A stretch of DNA of 32,942 bases from an uncultured bacterium (GTDB taxonomy: Bacteria; Desulfobacterota; Desulfobaccia; Desulfobaccales; 0-14-0-80-60-11). The position numbers and the translations under genes are program-made. The DNA lies in contig CALEAV010000020.1 of assembly GCA_937943575.1 (NCBI GenBank), positions 1 through 32,942 of the forward strand. The letters are read 5' to 3'. Of the stretch, positions 4,364 to 13,390 are shown piece after piece. The notes under the pieces were generated by a model, which did no database searches, was not told the origin of the DNA, and was given only the letters and a program-made list of their open reading frames with translations. Each line of letters starts with the position of its first letter. Position 1 is the stretch's first letter.

Positions 4364-5341
4364 ATGGGGGCGCTGACCGGGCCTTTTGCGACAGCACAGA
4401 TGCAGCCCATCATCGAGGTTCAGGGTCTGACCAAGGACTTCGGCCGCTTCCGGGCGGTGGACGGGGTCAGTTTCACGGTCTTTCAGGGGGAGATCTTCGG
4501 CTTTTTGGGGCCCAACGGCGCCGGCAAATCCACCACCATCCGCATGCTTTTGGGGCTGCTGCGGCCCAGCGGCGGCTCCGGGCGGGTGGCCGGCTATGAC
4601 CTGGTCAGGGAGCAGGCCCGCATCAAGGCCAAGGTGGGCTACATGTCCCAGCGCTTCAGCCTGTATGAGGATCTCACCGCGGAGGAGAACCTGGAGTTTT
4701 TCGGCGGGGTCTACGGCCTCCCTGAGGGGCGTCTGCGGGCCCGCATCGCCGAGGTGCTGGAGCTGGTGGGGCTGACGGAGCGGCGCCGGGACCTGACCCG
4801 CACCCTGGCTTTGGGCCTCCGCCAGCGCCTGGCCCTGGCCTCCGCCATGCTCCACGAGCCGCCCCTCCTGTTCCTGGATGAGCCCACCAGCGGGGTGGAC
4901 CCCATCTCCCGGCGCACCTTCTGGGACCTGATCTATGGGCTGGCGGCCCGGGGGGTGACGGTCCTGGTCACCACCCATTACCTGGATGAGGCGGAGTTCT
5001 GCGACCGGCTCATTCTCATTTCCCAGGGCCGGCTCATCGCCCAGGGCACCCCCCGGGAGCTGAAGGGCCGGGTGACAGATTGCCTCCTGGCGGTCTATCC
5101 CGATCCTGAGCGCTTGTCGGAGGCCCTGGCCGCCGCCCGGGAGATCCCCCAGGCCACGGAGGTGGCGGTCTTCGGGGCCGGCCTGCACGTGGCCTTTCCC
5201 CCGGAGGTGCCGGGAGAGGCGCTTCTCTCCCAGGCGTTGACGGCCCGCGGGGTCACTATCCGGCAGCTCAGGCCCGTGGCCCCTACCCTGGAGGACGCCT
5301 TCATCGCCCTCACCCGCCGGGCCTCCTCCCCATCGGCATGA
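4364..5341 (+). CDS. ABC exporter ATP-binding protein (YbhF-like, single domain)
   Basis: This 325-aa ATPase would power the two ABC-2 permeases that follow. Walker A is GPNGAGKST (residues 49-57), the Q-loop region is YMSQRFSLYEDL, Walker B is LLFLDEPTSG (168-177), and the switch histidine lies in TTHYLDEAE. The signature motif reads LALGLRQRL instead of LSGGxxQR; this form recurs in the C-terminal ATPase half of YbhF-type proteins, so it is a family trait and probably not damage. Unlike E. coli YbhF, which has two ATPase halves, this protein has one, so it should act as a homodimer. The ATG at 4364 has a GGGGGGAG site; the alternative at 4400 has none. The stop overlaps the next start in an ATGA, which points to translational coupling. 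Confidence 0.92.
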   Translation: MGALTGPFATAQMQPIIEVQGLTKDFGRFRAVDGVSFTVFQGEIFGFLGPNGAGKSTTIRMLLGLLRPSGGSGRVAGYDLVREQARIKAKVGYMSQRFSLYEDLTAEENLEFFGGVYGLPEGRLRARIAEVLELVGLTERRRDLTRTLALGLRQRLALASAMLHEPPLLFLDEPTSGVDPISRRTFWDLIYGLAARGVTVLVTTHYLDEAEFCDRLILISQGRLIAQGTPRELKGRVTDCLLAVYPDPERLSEALAAAREIPQATEVAVFGAGLHVAFPPEVPGEALLSQALTARGVTIRQLRPVAPTLEDAFIALTRRASSPSA

Positions 5342-6471
5342 ATCTGAGGCGCACCTACGCGGTCTTCCGCAAGGAGCTCATCCATATCCAGCGGGACCCT
5401 TCCAGCCTGGTGCAGGCCATCCTCCTGCCGGTGGTGCTGCTTCTTCTGTATGGCTACGCCCTCACCTTCGACATCACCGAGGTGCCGGTGGCGGTCTGGG
5501 ACCGGGAGCAGAGCCGGGCCTCCCGGGATTTAATCAACCGCTTTGGGGCCTCCCGTTATTTCACCTTGAGCTACCAGGTCCAGAGCTCCGAGGAGATCGC
5601 CCGGCTGCTGGACCGGCGCCGCATCTGGCTGGCCCTGGTTTTGCCCCACGATTTCTCCCGCTGTCTGGAGACCGGGGAGCCGGCGCCGGTGCAGGCCATC
5701 GTGGACGGCACCGACGCCAACACCGCCAACATCATCCTGGGCTATGTGCAGGGGGTGCTGGCCGAGTACAGCCGGGAGGTGGCGAAAAGCCGCCTGAAGG
5801 CCCGGGGGCTGGAGCGGCCCCTGGTGGAGCTCCGAAGCGAGGTCAGGGTGTGGTTCAATGAGGACCTGGAGAGCAAAAACTACATCGTCCCCGGCCTGAT
5901 TGTGGTCATCATGACCATGGTGGGCTCGCTTCTCACCGCCCTCACCATCGTCCGGGAACGGGAGCGGGGCAGCATGGAGGGCCTCATGGCCACCCCCCTG
6001 AAGAAATGGGAGCTCATCTTCGGCAAACTGGGCCCCTATTTCCTCATCGGCATGGTGGACATGTTCATCGCCCTGGGCATGGGAAAGTTCCTCTTTGACG
6101 TCCCCTTGCGGGGCAGCGTTTCCCTGCTCATTGTCCTTTCCGCCCTTTTTCTGGTGGTCATGCTGGGCCAGGGGCTGCTCATTTCGGTCCTGTCCATCAA
6201 CCAGCTCCAGGCCTACCAGATGGCCACCCTGTTCACCTTTCTGCCGGCGTTTCTGCTCTCCGGCTTTGTCTTTGCCATCAAACAGATGCCCCTGGCCCTG
6301 CAGCTGGTGAGCTATCTGGTGCCCTCCCGCTATTTCGTCACCATCTCCAAGGGCATCTACCTCAAGGGGGTCGGGCTCAGCCTCCTTATGGGGGAAGTGC
6401 TGGTGCTGCTGGCCTTTGCCGCCTTCTTTCTGGTGGCGGCCCAGCGCCGGCTGGTGAAGAAGATCCCCTGA
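5338..6471 (+). CDS. ABC-2 type permease (YbhS-like)
   Basis: This 377-aa membrane protein has one N-terminal transmembrane helix (about residues 24-44), a large extracytoplasmic domain (about 45-170), and a C-terminal block of five hydrophobic segments. Between these blocks lies the ABC-2 coupling region TIVRERERGSMEGLMATPL, typical of the ABC2 membrane family 3 (YhhJ/YbhS/YbhR). The start overlaps the end of the ATPase gene by four bases, so the two are translated together. With the following paralogous permease it probably forms a heterodimeric channel. The last residues are basic (RRLVKKIP), as expected for a cytoplasmic C-terminus. Confidence 0.9.
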   Translation: MNLRRTYAVFRKELIHIQRDPSSLVQAILLPVVLLLLYGYALTFDITEVPVAVWDREQSRASRDLINRFGASRYFTLSYQVQSSEEIARLLDRRRIWLALVLPHDFSRCLETGEPAPVQAIVDGTDANTANIILGYVQGVLAEYSREVAKSRLKARGLERPLVELRSEVRVWFNEDLESKNYIVPGLIVVIMTMVGSLLTALTIVRERERGSMEGLMATPLKKWELIFGKLGPYFLIGMVDMFIALGMGKFLFDVPLRGSVSLLIVLSALFLVVMLGQGLLISVLSINQLQAYQMATLFTFLPAFLLSGFVFAIKQMPLALQLVSYLVPSRYFVTISKGIYLKGVGLSLLMGEVLVLLAFAAFFLVAAQRRLVKKIP

Positions 6472-6512: not shown

Positions 6513-7643
6513 ATGCTCAGGCGGCTACGCTACATGGTGAAAAAGGAGCTCATCCAGGCGTTGCGGGACCCGCGTCTCAGGCTCTTCGTCATCCTGCCGC
6601 CCCTCATCCAGCTCATCATCTACGGCTATGCCATCAACTTTGACCTGAAGCACATCGACACCGCAGTGCTGGACCAGGACCTGAGCCGGGCCAGCCGCCA
6701 GCTCGTCAGCCGCTTTGCCGCCACCGAATATTTTGCGGTGGGCCATGTTCTCCGGCAGCCGGGGGAGATCCCCCCCCTCCTGGACCGAAACCGGGCGACC
6801 CTGGTGCTGCGGTTGGCCCCGGATTTCGGCCGGGAGCTGGCAGGCGGCCGGCCGGCCCGGCTGCAGCTCATCCTGGACGGCACGGACTCCAACAGCGCCC
6901 TGGTGGTGGCCCGCTACGCCGCCCAGGTGCTGGCGGACTACCAGGAGGAGCTGACCACGGCCCGGCTGGCCGCCCTGGGGCTGCCCCCGGAGCTGGCCCG
7001 GCCGGTGCGCCTGGAGCCCCGGGCCTGGTTTAATGAGAACCTCACCAGCCGCTGGTCCTTTGTCCCCGGGGTGATTGCCATGGTGGTCATGCTGGTGAGC
7101 CTGATGCTCACCGCCCTGGCGGTGGTGCGGGAAAAGGAGCTGGGCACCATGGAGCAGATCCTGGTGACCCCTCTTAGGCCGGTGGAATTCCTCCTGGGGA
7201 AGACCATCCCCTTTGTCCTCATTGCCCTTCTGGATGTGGTGCTGGTGACTTTGGTGGGGGTCTTCTGGTTCGAGGTGCCCCTGCGGGGCAGCCTGGCGGT
7301 CTTATTTTTGGGGACCCTTTTTTTCCTGTTCAATTCCGTGGGCCTGGGGCTGCTCATCTCCACCGTGTCCGCCACCCAGCAGCAGGCCATGATGGCGGGC
7401 ACCTTCTTTTTCACTCCGGCCATCCTCCTTTCGGGCCTGGTCTTTCCGTTGCGCAACATGCCGGAGGCGGTGCAGTATCTCACCTACCTCAACCCCCTGC
7501 GGTATTTCATCATCATCATCCAGGACGTCTTCCTGAAGGGGGTGGGGCTGGAGGTCTTGTGGCCCCAGATGCTGGGGTTGGGGCTGCTGGGCCTGTCCCT
7601 GCTGACGTTCAGCGTCCTGCGTTCCCAGCGGCATCTGGGGTGA
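6513..7643 (+). CDS. ABC-2 type permease (YbhR-like)
   Basis: This 376-aa protein has the same plan as the preceding permease: an N-terminal helix, an extracytoplasmic domain, then the coupling stretch VVREKELGTMEQILVTPL and five C-terminal helices. The two share matching motifs (DPRLRLF/DPSSLVQ, DGTDSNSA/DGTDANTA, WFNENL/WFNEDL) and are clear paralogues that arose by duplication. AAAAGGAG precedes the ATG by about eight bases. The 41-nt gap to the upstream gene contains no terminator, so all four genes from 3295 are likely one operon. It ends at 7643, followed by a 263-nt gap before the cytochrome gene. Confidence 0.9.
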   Translation: MLRRLRYMVKKELIQALRDPRLRLFVILPPLIQLIIYGYAINFDLKHIDTAVLDQDLSRASRQLVSRFAATEYFAVGHVLRQPGEIPPLLDRNRATLVLRLAPDFGRELAGGRPARLQLILDGTDSNSALVVARYAAQVLADYQEELTTARLAALGLPPELARPVRLEPRAWFNENLTSRWSFVPGVIAMVVMLVSLMLTALAVVREKELGTMEQILVTPLRPVEFLLGKTIPFVLIALLDVVLVTLVGVFWFEVPLRGSLAVLFLGTLFFLFNSVGLGLLISTVSATQQQAMMAGTFFFTPAILLSGLVFPLRNMPEAVQYLTYLNPLRYFIIIIQDVFLKGVGLEVLWPQMLGLGLLGLSLLTFSVLRSQRHLG

Positions 7644-7906: not shown

Positions 7907-9262
7907 ATGCCTGACAGAACACCCCTCTTTCCGCCCGCCCTGACCCTGGGGGCCCTGTCCGCCTTCCTGGCGGCCCTGGTGTGGATCGGATTCTCCCACC
8001 CGGCCGAAGCCGGCAAGGGGGGCAAGCCCAAACCCGGGGGCTCCGGCCACCACGGCGTCACCACCTATGAGGGCAGCGCCACCTGCAAGAAGTGCCACAG
8101 CAAAAAGGTGCAGGAGGTCCTCAACGCGGAACACTACCAGTGGGCCGGAAAACTCGGGAAAATCAACGACTTCTGCACTTACCCCGACATCAACTGGCTG
8201 CAGCAGATCACGGTGAAGGCCCCCGATGGCACCAGCAAAACCACCGTCACCGGCTGCGCCTCCTGCCACGTGAGCTACGGGGAGTTCACCCCCCCGCCCC
8301 TGGGCGGCCCCATGCCGGTGCAGGAGGACCGGATTGACTGCCTCGTGTGCCACTCCGATGCCTACAAGCGGGTGGGCACCCTGGTCAACGGCAAGCCCGC
8401 CCTCATCATGGACCCCAGCCTCAACCCGGCCACGGTGCTGGCGGCCATCAAAAAGACGCCCTCGGCCCAGGCCTGCCTGAACTGCCATGCCCGGGCCGGC
8501 GGGGGCAATGCCGTCAAGCAGGGGGACCTGGAGCTGGCCATGGCCAATCCGGCCTTTGACCTGGATGTGCATCTGGCCGGCACTGCGGTGGGCGGCGCCG
8601 GCTTGACCTGTGTCTCCTGCCACACCGTGAGCGCCCACAAAGTCGCCGGCAAGGGCAACGACCTCCGGGTGGCGGAAGGGAGCGGCATGAAGACCTGCAC
8701 CACCTGCCATGGCACTGCGCCCCACGGCTCCGGCAACCTCAACAAGCACTACAGCCGGGACAAGCAGCCCCTGGACTGCACCGTCTGCCACATCCCCAGC
8801 TACGCCCGGGGCCTGCCCACCGAAACCCGCCGGGACTTCAGCCTGGCGGAATTCGATGCCGCCGCGGGCCGCTGGGAGGCCCACCGCACTCTGGGGGAGG
8901 ACCTGCTGCCCGTGTGGCGCACCTGGAACGGCACCTCCTTCTTCTACCACCTGGGCACGGCCATCAGCGGCGACACCCTGACCCTGGCGGGCCCCAACGC
9001 CGGCACCCGCCTCTATCCCTTCAAGGTGCACACCGCCCGCATGGCGGTGGACCAGGCCAGCCGGCTCATCCCCCTGAAGTCCGCCCCCCTGTGGAGCACC
9101 GGCGATCTGAACCTGGCCCGGGTCCAGGGCGAGCTGGAGGTCTTCGGGGACAACCTGGGGAGCGTGAGGTTTGTGGAGACCACCCGTTACTTCGGCCTTT
9201 ACCACCAGGTGGCTCCCAAGGACCAGGCCAAGCAGGTCTGCGCCCGGTGCCATAATAAATAA
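7907..9262 (+). CDS. otr: Octaheme cytochrome c, tetrathionate-reductase (OTR) family
   Basis: This 451-aa protein has a Sec signal peptide (hydrophobic core about residues 11-30, likely cut after AEA at 35). It carries eight CXXCH heme sites, at residues 60, 117, 145, 190, 235, 264, 291 and 445. Spacing and flanking motifs match the Shewanella octaheme tetrathionate reductase as I remember it: INDFC, CASCHVSYG, DCLVCH, GGGNAVKQGDL, DVHL, CTVCHIPSYARG, YPFKVHT, and a C-terminus of VAPKDQ then CHNK. That enzyme reduces tetrathionate, nitrite and hydroxylamine at a lysine-ligated heme. K154, shortly after the third heme site, is a candidate ligand, unproven. The ATG at 7907 has AAGGAGGAG upstream; an in-frame start at 7769 would put 46 unlikely residues before the signal. 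The hydrogenase genes follow after 87 nt, so it is probably the electron partner of the hydrogenase. Confidence 0.9.
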   Translation: MPDRTPLFPPALTLGALSAFLAALVWIGFSHPAEAGKGGKPKPGGSGHHGVTTYEGSATCKKCHSKKVQEVLNAEHYQWAGKLGKINDFCTYPDINWLQQITVKAPDGTSKTTVTGCASCHVSYGEFTPPPLGGPMPVQEDRIDCLVCHSDAYKRVGTLVNGKPALIMDPSLNPATVLAAIKKTPSAQACLNCHARAGGGNAVKQGDLELAMANPAFDLDVHLAGTAVGGAGLTCVSCHTVSAHKVAGKGNDLRVAEGSGMKTCTTCHGTAPHGSGNLNKHYSRDKQPLDCTVCHIPSYARGLPTETRRDFSLAEFDAAAGRWEAHRTLGEDLLPVWRTWNGTSFFYHLGTAISGDTLTLAGPNAGTRLYPFKVHTARMAVDQASRLIPLKSAPLWSTGDLNLARVQGELEVFGDNLGSVRFVETTRYFGLYHQVAPKDQAKQVCARCHNK

Positions 9263-9349
9263 CCACCGCCGGATAATGTCCCCCCGCCTCGGGGCCTGGC
9301 GCCGGGGCCGGGTTTTGAGGGCTTTATCCACCCCCAAGGAGGAATCCAC

Positions 9350-10246
9350 ATGCCCATCAGCCGCCGTGATTTTCTCAAATACTGCAGCGCCGCGGCTGCG
9401 GCCCTGGGGCTGGGAGGCACGGATCTGCTCAGGCTGGAGCAGGTCCTGGCCGACCCCACCGCACCCACGGTGCTCTGGCTGCACGGCAGCAGCTGCTCCG
9501 GCTGCTCCGTGTCCTTCCTCAATTACATCGCCGGAAGCGATCCCACTGACCCCGGGGACATCCTGCTCAACCACGTCAACCTGGCCTACCATCCGGTGCT
9601 CATGGCCCCGGCGGGTCTGCCGGCCTATCAGGCGGCCGAGGCGGCCTACAGCCTGGGCAACTATGTCCTGGTGGTGGAAGGGGCGGTGGCCACCCAGTTC
9701 AGCGGCCGCTGCTGCTGGCCCTGGGCCGACGGCACCGGGACGGAGGAGACCTTTCTGTCGGCCGTGACCCGGTATGCGGCCAAGGCCGCCCAGGTGGTGT
9801 GCGCCGGCAGCTGCTCAGCCTTCGGCGGCATCCCCGCGGCCGGCAGCAACCCCACCCTGGCCCGAAGCGTCCGGGCGGTGACGGGAAAGCCCACCATCAA
9901 TATCCCGGGCTGCCCCTGCCATCCCAACTGGCTGGTCTGGGCGCTGGTGCAGATCCTCCTGGGGAAGGGCATCAGCACCGACAGCTCCGGCCGGCCCACC
10001 GCCCTGTTCAGCAGCAAGGTGCACAGCAACTGCCCCCGGCGGGGGAAACCCAAGGACACCGTCCTGGGCGGCAGCGGCTGCCTGAGGGATCTGGGCTGCC
10101 GGGGGCCGGATACCCAGGCCAACTGCCCGGCGCAGAAATGGAACAACGCCCAGAGCTGGTGCATCGAGGCCAGCGCGCCCTGCTATGGCTGCACCGAGCC
10201 CGGGTTTCCCGGCAGCAGCCCGTTTTACAAGTTCCCTGCCGGATAA
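9350..10246 (+). CDS. [NiFe] hydrogenase small subunit, Tat-exported, soluble
   Basis: This 298-aa subunit carries three iron-sulfur clusters from the nickel site to the outside. The N-terminus has a Tat signal (SRRDFLK). Proximal cluster ligands are C49, C52, C155 and C188. The distal cluster has H225, C228, C244 and C250. The medial site has C259, C271, C278 and C281. C271 (in SWCIEA) occupies the position that is proline in classical enzymes with a [3Fe-4S] medial cluster, so three [4Fe-4S] clusters are predicted. The proximal motif SSCSGC lacks the extra cysteines of oxygen-tolerant enzymes. The protein stops soon after GCTEPGF with no C-terminal membrane helix, so the dimer should be periplasmic and soluble. 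AAGGAGGA lies before the ATG. It belongs to group 1 (or close) by signal and motifs; the exact subgroup needs a tree. Confidence 0.95.
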   Translation: MPISRRDFLKYCSAAAAALGLGGTDLLRLEQVLADPTAPTVLWLHGSSCSGCSVSFLNYIAGSDPTDPGDILLNHVNLAYHPVLMAPAGLPAYQAAEAAYSLGNYVLVVEGAVATQFSGRCCWPWADGTGTEETFLSAVTRYAAKAAQVVCAGSCSAFGGIPAAGSNPTLARSVRAVTGKPTINIPGCPCHPNWLVWALVQILLGKGISTDSSGRPTALFSSKVHSNCPRRGKPKDTVLGGSGCLRDLGCRGPDTQANCPAQKWNNAQSWCIEASAPCYGCTEPGFPGSSPFYKFPAG

Positions 10247-10283
10247 CCTTGCACCCTGGCAGATCAGCCAAGGAGGATGACCC

Positions 10284-11771
10284 ATGGGCAAAAGGAAACC
10301 CCAACCGCCGCCGCCCCCGACCACTACCGTCCGGATTATCGACCCGGTGACCCGGATTGAAGGCCACCTGCGCATCAGCGTCACCCTGACCCCGGACGCC
10401 ACCGGCAGACTGGTGGTGAGCGACGCCCAGTCCACCGGCACGCTGTTCCGGGGCTTTGAAAATATTCTCCTCGGGCGGCATCCCTGGGACGCCCAGCATT
10501 TCACCCAGCGCATCTGCGGCGTCTGCCCCGTATCCCACGGCATGGCCGCCGTCCAGGCCATCGATGCCGCTTCCCAGGCGACGGTGCCGGCCAACGCCCG
10601 CATCATGCGCAACCTGGTCCTGGGGGCCAACCTCATCGACTCCCACATCCTGCATTTTTACCACCTGACCCTGCCGGATTACGTCACCCCGCCGGCCATG
10701 AACATGCCGCCCTGGAACACCGACTGGGTGCATGACGAAAATTTCACCGACAGCGAAGCCAACACCTTGGCGGCCCATTATCTGGAGGCCCTGAAAGCAA
10801 GGCGGCTGGCTCATGAGATGGGGGCCATCTTCGGGGGCAAGCTCCCCCACCCGCCGGCATATGTGCCGGGGGGATTCACCGCCACCCCCACGGCGGAGAA
10901 GATCAGCCGCTTCGAGGGGTATCTCAACCAGGTCATTGATTTCCTGAACAATTATTACCTGCCGGATGTTCAGCTCCTGGTGAGCCGCTATCCGGCCTAT
11001 GACGCCATCGGCCGGGGCTGTGGGAATCTTCTGGCCTTCGGCTGCTTCGAGGAGGGGAGCGGCAACCTGTTTCTCCGTCGGGGTCGCCTCCCCTGGGGCA
11101 GCGCCGCGGTGCAGCCCGTGGAGGTGGGAAAGATCGCCGAGTTTGTCAAGTATTCCTGGTATGCCGAGGCCACCGGCGGCCTCAATCCGGCCGCAGGGGT
11201 CACCACCCCGGTGGATCCGGAGAGCAAGGCCACGGCCTACTCCTGGCTGAAGGCGCCCCGCTATGACGGCGTCCCTTATGAGGCGGGGCCGCTGGCCCGC
11301 ATGGTGGTGAGCCATCTCTATCCTGCCGGCAAGGTCTCGGTGAATGACCGCCACCTGGCCCGGGCCTTTGAGGCCCTGGAGGTGGCGGAGCAGATGCGCC
11401 TGTGGCTCAACCAGCTCAGGAGCGGCCTGGGGCAGCCGACGTATATCTCCACGGCGGTGCCCCGCTCGGCCGTGGGGGTGGGCCTCACCGAAGCCCCCCG
11501 GGGGGCCCTGGGTCACTGGCTGGAAATCAAAGAGGGCAAGATCTCCCGTTACCAGGTGATCACCCCCACCTGCTGGAACGCTTCGCCCCGGGATGCCAAC
11601 GGCCGGAGGGGGCCCCTGGAGGAGGCCCTCATCGGCACGCCGGTGGCCGATCCGGAGCGGCCGGTGGAGGTGCTCCGGGTCGTCCATTCCTTTGACCCCT
11701 GCCTGGCCTGCGCGGTGCATGTGCTCCGGCCCGACGCCGGCCGGAAGATCTTTCCCGTGGGCCATGGCTGA
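10284..11771 (+). CDS. [NiFe] hydrogenase large (catalytic) subunit
   Basis: This 495-aa subunit splits or forms H2 at the NiFe(CN)2CO centre. The two nickel-binding motifs are present: RICGVCPVSH (C78, C81) near the N-terminus and DPCLACAVH (C473, C476, H479) near the C-terminus. VTRIEGH at 22-28 is also diagnostic. All four ligands are cysteine codons (TGC or TGT), so this is not a [NiFeSe] enzyme. The last 16 residues after H479 form the tail that a maturation protease removes; that protease is the next gene. The proline-rich start (residues 6-12) is unusual but short. The protein has no signal of its own and should ride through Tat with the small subunit. AAGGAGGA precedes the ATG. The 37-nt gap after the small subunit and the 8-nt overlap with the protease gene indicate one operon. 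Confidence 0.96.
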   Translation: MGKRKPQPPPPPTTTVRIIDPVTRIEGHLRISVTLTPDATGRLVVSDAQSTGTLFRGFENILLGRHPWDAQHFTQRICGVCPVSHGMAAVQAIDAASQATVPANARIMRNLVLGANLIDSHILHFYHLTLPDYVTPPAMNMPPWNTDWVHDENFTDSEANTLAAHYLEALKARRLAHEMGAIFGGKLPHPPAYVPGGFTATPTAEKISRFEGYLNQVIDFLNNYYLPDVQLLVSRYPAYDAIGRGCGNLLAFGCFEEGSGNLFLRRGRLPWGSAAVQPVEVGKIAEFVKYSWYAEATGGLNPAAGVTTPVDPESKATAYSWLKAPRYDGVPYEAGPLARMVVSHLYPAGKVSVNDRHLARAFEALEVAEQMRLWLNQLRSGLGQPTYISTAVPRSAVGVGLTEAPRGALGHWLEIKEGKISRYQVITPTCWNASPRDANGRRGPLEEALIGTPVADPERPVEVLRVVHSFDPCLACAVHVLRPDAGRKIFPVGHG

Positions 11772-12273
11772 GTGGCCGGGACCGAAGAGGCTGCGTCCCC
11801 CCCGGGTACTGGTCGCCGGCCTGGGGAACCTGCTCCTGCGGGATGACGGGGTGGGGGTGCAGGCGGTGCGGCTGCTCCAGGAAGAACCCCTTCCCGGTGT
11901 GCTCCTGGCGGAGGTGGGGACCCAGGTGCTGGGGGCCCTGCACCTCCTGGAGTGGGCCGACCGGGTGCTGGCCCTGGATGCCCTCATGGCCGGCGGGCCT
12001 CCCGGCACCATTTATGCCTGCCGGGAAAGCGATGTGGCCCAGGAGGAGGTCCAGGCCTCCCTGCATGAGTTGGGCCTGCGGGCGGCGCTGCAGTTTCTGC
12101 CTCAGGAACGCCGCCCCGAGGTCTTCATCCTGGGGATGGAGCCCGCATGTTTGGAGCCGGGCCTGGAGCTCTCCCCGCCGGTGGCCGCGGCCTTGCCCCG
12201 CTTCCTTCAGCTGGCCCGGGACAGCGCCGCCCGCCTGCGCCATCGGGGGCGGCTTGTGGGGGATCACGACTGA
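11764..12273 (+). CDS. Hydrogenase maturation endopeptidase (HyaD/HybD family)
   Basis: This 169-aa cytoplasmic protease cuts the C-terminal tail from the large subunit after nickel has been inserted. The family start motif GLGNLLLRDDGVG is present; D28 stands where HybD has its first nickel-binding acid (Glu16). D72 in LALDAL and H101 in SLHELG match the other two nickel-sensing residues. The ATG at 11764 lies inside the last codons of the large-subunit gene (8-nt overlap), which supports both the start choice and coupled translation. The C-terminal stretch (residues 150-169) is basic and less conserved. It is the last gene of the operon, followed by a hairpin at 12291. Confidence 0.9.
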   Translation: MAEWPGPKRLRPPRVLVAGLGNLLLRDDGVGVQAVRLLQEEPLPGVLLAEVGTQVLGALHLLEWADRVLALDALMAGGPPGTIYACRESDVAQEEVQASLHELGLRAALQFLPQERRPEVFILGMEPACLEPGLELSPPVAAALPRFLQLARDSAARLRHRGRLVGDHD

Positions 12274-12391: not shown

Positions 12392-13390
12392 TCAGCAGAT
12401 GCGGGGCAGGAGCTCCCCGGCAGGGGGCTCCAGGAGGCGGGAGGTGCCCAGCCCGGTGCGCAGCACCACCCGGCCGGGCGGGCCCTCCAGGACCCGGCCG
12501 ATACGGGCGGCCCGCTCGCCGTACGGGGACCGGCGCATGATTTCCAGGGCCGCCTCCGCCTCCGCCTCCGGCAGCACCACCAGCATCTTCCCTTCATTGG
12601 CCACCTGCAGGGGCTCCAGCCCCAAAGCCTCACAGGCGGCGGCCACCGCCGGGCTGATGGGGATGCGGTCCTCCTCCACTTCGATGGCCACCTGAGACTG
12701 GCGGGCCAGTTCGGTCAACGCCGCGGCCACGCCCCCCCGGGTGGGGTCCCGCAGGGCATGGATGGCAAGTCCGGCCGACAGCAGCCCCAGCACCATGCCG
12801 GTCAGGGGGGCGGCGTCGCTAGTAAGCTCCACCCCTTCCAGCAGTCCCTCCCTTGCCAGCATCACGGTGGCGCCGTGATCCCCCACGGTGCCGGAGAGAA
12901 GGACGGCATCCCCGGGTCTGAGAGCGCTTCCGGAAATCCCGGGCCTGAGGATCTGCCCCACTCCGGCGGTGGTGATGAAGACCTGATCCGCGGCCCCCCG
13001 GGGCACCACCTTGGTGTCCCCGGTGACGATGCTCACCCCGCACTCCCGGGCGGTGGCCGCCATGGAGGCGGCGATGCGGCTTAAGGTCTCCACCGGCAGC
13101 CCCTCCTCCAGGATGAAGGAGGCGGCGAGGGCCAGCGGCCGGGCCCCGGCGGTGAGAAGGTCGTTCACCGTCCCCGCCACCGCCAGCCGGCCGATGTCGC
13201 CCCCCGGGAAAAAGAGGGGGGAGACCACGAAGGAGTCGGTGGTGAAGGCCAGCGGGCCGGCCGCCAGATGGAGGACGGCGCTGTCATCCGCCACAAAGTC
13301 CGCCGGGCCGTAGGCGCTGAGAAACACCCGCCGGATGAGCTCCCCCATCTCCCGGCCGCCGGCCCCGTGACTGAGCAGAATCACATCCAT
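12392..13390 (-). CDS. hypE: Hydrogenase maturation protein HypE
   Basis: This 332-aa protein dehydrates the carbamoyl group on its own C-terminal cysteine to make the cyanide ligands of the NiFe site, working with HypF and passing CN to HypC-HypD. The motifs are clear: SHGAGGREMGELI at the start, DDSAVL, GDIGRLAVAGTVNDL, and GDTKVV. The protein ends PRIC, so the essential terminal Cys (C332) is present. It lies on the opposite strand and converges on the hydrogenase operon. The partner genes hypA, B, C, D and F are not in the window and must lie elsewhere if the hydrogenase matures. A separate hypE is less usual than the common hypFCDE order. It is divergent from bioA. Confidence 0.96.
   Translation of the reverse strand: MDVILLSHGAGGREMGELIRRVFLSAYGPADFVADDSAVLHLAAGPLAFTTDSFVVSPLFFPGGDIGRLAVAGTVNDLLTAGARPLALAASFILEEGLPVETLSRIAASMAATARECGVSIVTGDTKVVPRGAADQVFITTAGVGQILRPGISGSALRPGDAVLLSGTVGDHGATVMLAREGLLEGVELTSDAAPLTGMVLGLLSAGLAIHALRDPTRGGVAAALTELARQSQVAIEVEEDRIPISPAVAAACEALGLEPLQVANEGKMLVVLPEAEAEAALEIMRRSPYGERAARIGRVLEGPPGRVVLRTGLGTSRLLEPPAGELLPRIC

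Follow-up and report, generated by a model that had tools for sequence, protein, structure and literature searches.

The window analysed here is a stretch of 32,942 nucleotides from an uncultured member of the Desulfobaccales; it is contig C20 of genome G000, which comprises 62 contigs and 2.58 Mb and is 95.8% complete. It carries a gene for an octahaem c-type cytochrome of the OTR family, followed by the genes of a [NiFe] hydrogenase (small subunit HydS, large subunit HydL) and of its maturation protease. We consider it fairly probable that these genes encode two separable periplasmic redox modules drawing on a common pool of c-type cytochromes, and not one new enzyme. A first-pass annotation had proposed that electrons from H2 go directly to the octahaem protein. 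Neither a direct nor an exclusive coupling is supported; this attractive, operon-based reading fails a simple comparative test, as the genes part ways in the nearest relatives. The shared pool that we favour is in keeping with hydrogenase genes having been lost where OTR is kept, and being kept where OTR is absent. The genes in question are:

7907..9262, + strand: OTR-type octahaem c cytochrome (451 aa, 8 CXXCH, Sec-type signal), a predicted soluble periplasmic reductase
9350..10246, + strand: HydS, [NiFe] hydrogenase small subunit (298 aa, twin-arginine translocation (Tat) signal, without membrane anchor; TIGR00391, TIGR01409, PF01058, PF14720)
10284..11771, + strand: HydL, [NiFe] hydrogenase large subunit (495 aa; PF00374; Cys, not selenocysteine (Sec), at the Ni site)
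11764..12273, + strand: hydrogenase maturation protease of the HycI/HyaD type (TIGR00072 above cut-off, PF01750)

Distribution of the OTR-hydrogenase pairing

Among the 29 genomes compared at the level of the order, where a hydrogenase was counted as orthologous at a HydS value of at least 50%, OTR is present in 8 and the orthologous hydrogenase in 7, but no genomes other than G000 and G009 have the two side by side. The pairing thus occurs in 2 of the 3 sampled species of the window's genus (G000, G008 and G009). The third species, G008, has an OTR gene (86% identical) with hypE ~230 bp further on, and the three hydrogenase genes are missing from the contig. An assembly gap was ruled out as the explanation, since OTR and hypE lie this close together on one contig, and the open reading frame and a dN/dS of 0.23 against G009 ruled out that the G008 OTR is a pseudogene.

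The two genes also occur apart in the other genomes. G006 has OTR together with ATP-binding cassette (ABC) genes and lacks a hydrogenase of the window type, which is likewise absent from the OTR-bearing G015. OTR and hydrogenase lie on separate contigs in G014 and G018, where the hydrogenase adjoins hypE, with ABC permeases upstream and no OTR alongside. G019 and G020 possess the hydrogenase without any OTR match, and G017 has a damaged hydrogenase locus and no OTR match. The small subunit of G017 reads in frame into the C-terminus of the large subunit, through either a deletion or an assembly artefact (L062:3636-4655).

Wider scans gave the same picture. No hydrogenase subunit was found in the flanks (at most 10 kb, and less where a contig ended) of the 80 named OTR loci, among them those of G008, G006, G015 and G018; this set may omit the records closest to the window and is silent on further strains of its genus. 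Near 61 further OTR loci from the phylum the count was again zero. The hydrogenase queries used did recover hydrogenases at positive loci. The conserved neighbourhood, whose lack in related genomes the first-pass annotation had named as speaking against its own proposal, is therefore largely missing: G008 has lost the hydrogenase, and the sister genera have the two genes apart or have no OTR.

Another arrangement was seen in G010, of the same family as the window genome, in which a distant OTR adjoins a heptahaem protein that includes a cytochrome b561 domain (L024:2925-6628). This pair is likely a quinol-linked OTR system.

The octahaem cytochrome

In its fold and residues the octahaem protein resembles OTR, as had been proposed, yet it falls outside the strict TIGR04315 subfamily (E 2.6e-56; 191.5 bits, below the curated cut-off of 375 bits). 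Its sequence matches the Shewanella OTR structure 1SP3 with an E value of 5e-35. An AlphaFold model built from 61 homologues (pLDDT 87) had 1SP3 as its only strong PDB match (Foldseek E 2.4e-25), the absence of other folds from this look-up not being counted as evidence, and superposed on it with Z 33.7 and a root-mean-square deviation of 2.7 over 361 residues. The eight CXXCH haem sites are in register with those of the OTR family.

The residues N61, C64, K153, D169, H171 and H400 of 1SP3 correspond to N87, C90, K204, D220, H222 and H433 of the window protein. We take Lys153 of 1SP3 to be the ligand of the active-site haem, with Cys64 and Asn61 close by. C90, K82, K204, D220, H222 and H433 are invariant across the 61 homologues, N87 is found in 60 of them, and the position of 1SP3 D150, which is variable, is occupied by Asn in the window protein. 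Moreover, 17 distant homologues from the phylum contain an in-frame TGA, which falls on C90 in 15 and, shifted in the alignment, in the same NNF* motif in 2. These are probable selenocysteine forms (L235, L241, L245, L252, L254, L256, L258, L262, L263, L270, L272, L274-L276 and L279-L281); a 2026 review lists selenoproteins of TIGR04315 and gives no motif (PMC13188914).

Given the invariance of this cysteine and its exchange with TGA, we read C90 as catalytic, so that the window OTR would be an enzyme and not merely a wire. The exchange is evidence that a catalytic OTR cysteine has been kept across a large, mostly uncharacterised family. Since it has both the fold and the active-site residues of OTR, the window protein is probably a working reductase. 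Known substrates of OTR are tetrathionate, nitrite and hydroxylamine. The N-terminus contains one hydrophobic signal with a cleavable-looking site (AEA/G), which makes a soluble periplasmic protein probable.

The hydrogenase

Family matches and coordinates bear out the small subunit, large subunit and maturation protease, with short gaps, of the first-pass annotation. HydS has the Tat motif SRRDFLK, scores above cut-off with TIGR01409 and TIGR00391 and has no second hydrophobic stretch, in agreement with the predicted Tat signal without membrane helix. HydL contains the motifs RICGVC and DPCLACAVH, the latter followed by a 16-residue C-terminal peptide (VLRPDAGRKIFPVGHG). The features of a group 1 [NiFe] hydrogenase are thus present: a two-subunit core, the L1 and L2 cysteines, a Tat signal, a C-terminal processing site and a protease. 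They support a soluble, periplasmic enzyme.

Among solved structures, both subunits are closest to those of Desulfovibrio NiFeSe hydrogenases (HysA in the case of HydL). HydL scores 555 bits with NF033181, under the curated cut-off of 600, and NF045518 and NF045520 are also below cut-off. There is no selenocysteine at the Ni site, which reads DPCLACAVH without an in-frame TGA. Judged from its sequence, the window hydrogenase is NiFeSe-like but Cys-using. Assignment to the O2-tolerant hydrogenases was ruled out, as the motifs CSGC and GSCSAFGG hold no extra proximal-cluster cysteine, which we take to be the mark of that class.

In the HydS tree, the window protein falls in an eight-member clade (support 100/99) with those of G009, of G165 and G137 (both from another family) and of four sister-genus genomes. 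In G165, a secreted protein of 622 aa that contains one CXXCH is encoded after the hydrogenase (L220:2653-7491). Apart from the window HydS, no small subunit of this kind was found in the window genome. Other hydrogenase-like large subunits are encoded there: one in which an in-frame TGA immediately follows DP, a probable selenocysteine (C7:7212-8465, L026), one on C15 with DPCISCATHF, and a weak match on C53.

Small subunits with a CXXCH tail in sister genera

The HydS proteins of G014, G018, G019 and G020 end in a conserved C-terminal tail (NPHGG..NC..CH) that includes CXXCH once or twice (L058:7391-8308, L059:7866-8789, L060:7397-8401 and L061:1958-2866). This tail is absent from the HydS of the window's genus and of G165 and G137. 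From its motif, it may serve as the electron exit of the tailed hydrogenases. Metal handling is an alternative role, because in large subunits of this group the protease cleavage site is followed by a long C-terminal peptide rich in His (L058:8348-9964, L059:6219-7826 and L061:382-1920), which perhaps serves nickel handling. We found no report of a CXXCH-tailed hydrogenase small subunit in the papers searched, which is weak evidence of novelty. The soluble hydrogenase clade of these Desulfobacca-related bacteria has more than one kind of tie to c-type haems.

Proposed electron routes in the genome

The favoured arrangement of two modules on one cytochrome pool would work as follows. HydSL would be an ordinary soluble, Tat-exported H2-uptake hydrogenase, possibly reversible, of a sulfate or sulfite reducer. 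Its electrons would exit at the distal cluster and pass to multihaem cytochromes of the periplasm, above all HmcA, and this route would carry them across the membrane for sulfate reduction. OTR would be an additional periplasmic sink, fed from the same pool and reducing a sulfur or nitrogen oxyanion, probably for detoxification or the use of intermediates. H2 may then power OTR, though not exclusively and with no need for a fixed complex. The protein families, fold, active-site residues, export signals and gene order, the absence of the pairing elsewhere and the presence of Hmc and dsrA are shown, and the electron flow, the substrates and the shared pool are what we infer.

Hmc is a normal electron route for anchor-less periplasmic hydrogenases. 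In the window genome the complex is encoded on C51 (L216:1743-8128), with HmcA (16 haems), HmcB, HmcC, HmcE and HmcF each above the curated cut-off, and each of the three sampled species of the genus has HmcA. The genome also contains dsrA, adjoined by a second dsr-like gene, and a NapC/NrfH-family protein encoded on C14 is a possible alternative electron source for OTR. The first-pass annotation had noted that a membrane partner was lacking. This is true of the cluster, which contains no gene for a cytochrome b, a ferredoxin-like or a quinone-reactive subunit, but the genome has Hmc on another contig, and this accounts for the missing partner. In G014 and G018, HmcA and class III cytochromes were not found by the models used.

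Gene organisation and neighbours

The OTR, HydS, HydL and protease genes lie on one strand, spaced by 87 bp and 37 bp and then overlapping by 8 bp. Strong ribosome binding sites had been claimed for all four; AAGGAGG-type sites precede OTR, HydS and HydL, while the protease, whose ATG at 11764 lies within the 3' end of HydL, has no strong site. A search of the OTR-HydS gap for an intrinsic terminator was negative, which makes co-transcription plausible, and the four genes are probably a single operon. A sigma-70 promoter scan gave no match, which is uninformative in a GC-rich genome where other promoters are possible, and intergenic RNA folding in the window was not stronger than in shuffled sequences. 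The cluster is flanked by:

4364..5338, + strand: ABC exporter ATP-binding subunit, DrrA/RbbA-like
5338..6471, + strand: ABC-2 permease 1
6513..7643, + strand: ABC-2 permease 2
12392..13390, - strand: HypE maturation factor, convergent downstream neighbour (TIGR02124, 414 bits)

The ATP-binding gene of the exporter is kept adjoining OTR or the hydrogenase in relatives. It is not thought to be part of the redox system.

Alternative explanations

Several observations weigh against the reading of two separable modules. In two species the OTR and hydrogenase genes run in the same direction, closely spaced and without a terminator, and such an operon-like order can reflect joint use. Moreover, a search of the three species for a separate tetrahaem cytochrome c3 (PF02085, PF14537) turned up only HmcA, which leaves room for OTR as a partner in the step from hydrogenase to HmcA. 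The genetics of Desulfovibrio are also mixed as to whether Hmc accepts or donates electrons. Direct contact between HydSL and OTR is possible; both half reactions would then be periplasmic and no charge would be moved, so that its role would be confined to detoxification or redox balance.

One form of such contact would be a dedicated H2:octahaem oxidoreductase, in which OTR binds HydSL, takes electrons straight from the distal [4Fe-4S] cluster and reduces a periplasmic acceptor. The operon-like order, which has strong ribosome binding sites, lacks a terminator and is kept in G009, the absence of a membrane partner from the cluster and the OTR/hydrogenase neighbourhood of Caldithrix abyssi (PMC5317091) are in its favour, as is the c-haem motif of the sister-genus small subunits, which makes a haem plausible as direct exit in this clade. 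Yet G000 and G009 retain the whole region in order and are collinear throughout, so that their shared adjacency is little evidence; G008 has OTR without the hydrogenase genes, five genomes keep the hydrogenase without an adjacent OTR, and both wider scans were empty. The Caldithrix hydrogenase, for its part, comes with a cytochrome b of its own, and the sulfur respiration that had been predicted was not borne out when growth was tested. We therefore regard a dedicated complex as unlikely. A more specific version is distinctly improbable: that the direct exit of the clade is a c-type haem and that, in the window's genus, where the tail is absent, a separate OTR took over as docking partner, giving a direct H2:octahaem oxidoreductase.

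The genes could also be chance neighbours with no functional tie, at a locus anchored by the ABC exporter and hypE. OTR beside ABC genes without hydrogenase (G006, G008) and hydrogenase beside hypE with ABC permeases upstream and no adjoining OTR (G014, G018) speak for this. It is nevertheless quite unlikely in view of the single strand, the short gap without terminator, the periplasmic redox nature of both proteins and the similar neighbourhood in the unrelated phylum of Caldithrix abyssi. As for OTR serving mainly as a wire that stands in for the missing tetrahaem c3 between hydrogenase and HmcA, it is periplasmic, has eight haems, and belongs to a genus in which PF02085 and PF14537 found no small class III cytochrome. 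The invariant active-site Cys and Lys and the TGA at or next to the Cys in 17 distant homologues point to catalysis, however, and G006 has OTR with neither HmcA nor a window-type hydrogenase, which makes this role very improbable.

Comparison with known systems

The OTR of Shewanella oneidensis (1SP3) shares with the window protein the fold, the eight CXXCH and the equivalents of N61, C64, K153, D169, H171 and H400. The window protein differs in being ~30% identical in the structural alignment, in having Asn in place of D150 and in standing beside a hydrogenase. The periplasmic Desulfovibrio [NiFeSe] hydrogenase (2WPN, 5JSU), the nearest solved relative of both subunits, is likewise exported by Tat without an anchor and has an aligned Cys near the medial cluster (NWCVQ, SWCIE in the window). 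The window enzyme, in contrast, has Cys for Sec, is below the NCBIfam NiFeSe cut-offs and belongs to a separate eight-member HydS clade.

Gene neighbourhoods of a related kind have been described. The first-pass annotation knew of no enzyme with this make-up, a claim weakened by Caldithrix abyssi, in which an OTR homologue (Cabys_2302) lies near an uptake hydrogenase (Cabys_2299-2297) and for which H2-dependent tetrathionate reduction was proposed in 2017, although growth experiments did not bear out the predicted sulfur respirations (PMC5317091). As in the window, an OTR homologue is close to a group 1 hydrogenase, but the latter has its own cytochrome b subunit, and the locus numbers imply two intervening genes. 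Thermosulfurimonas dismutans, a dsr-bearing anaerobe, also has a periplasmic OTR-type protein; the neighbour of its OTR gene is a membrane cytochrome b and not a hydrogenase (PMC4911364).

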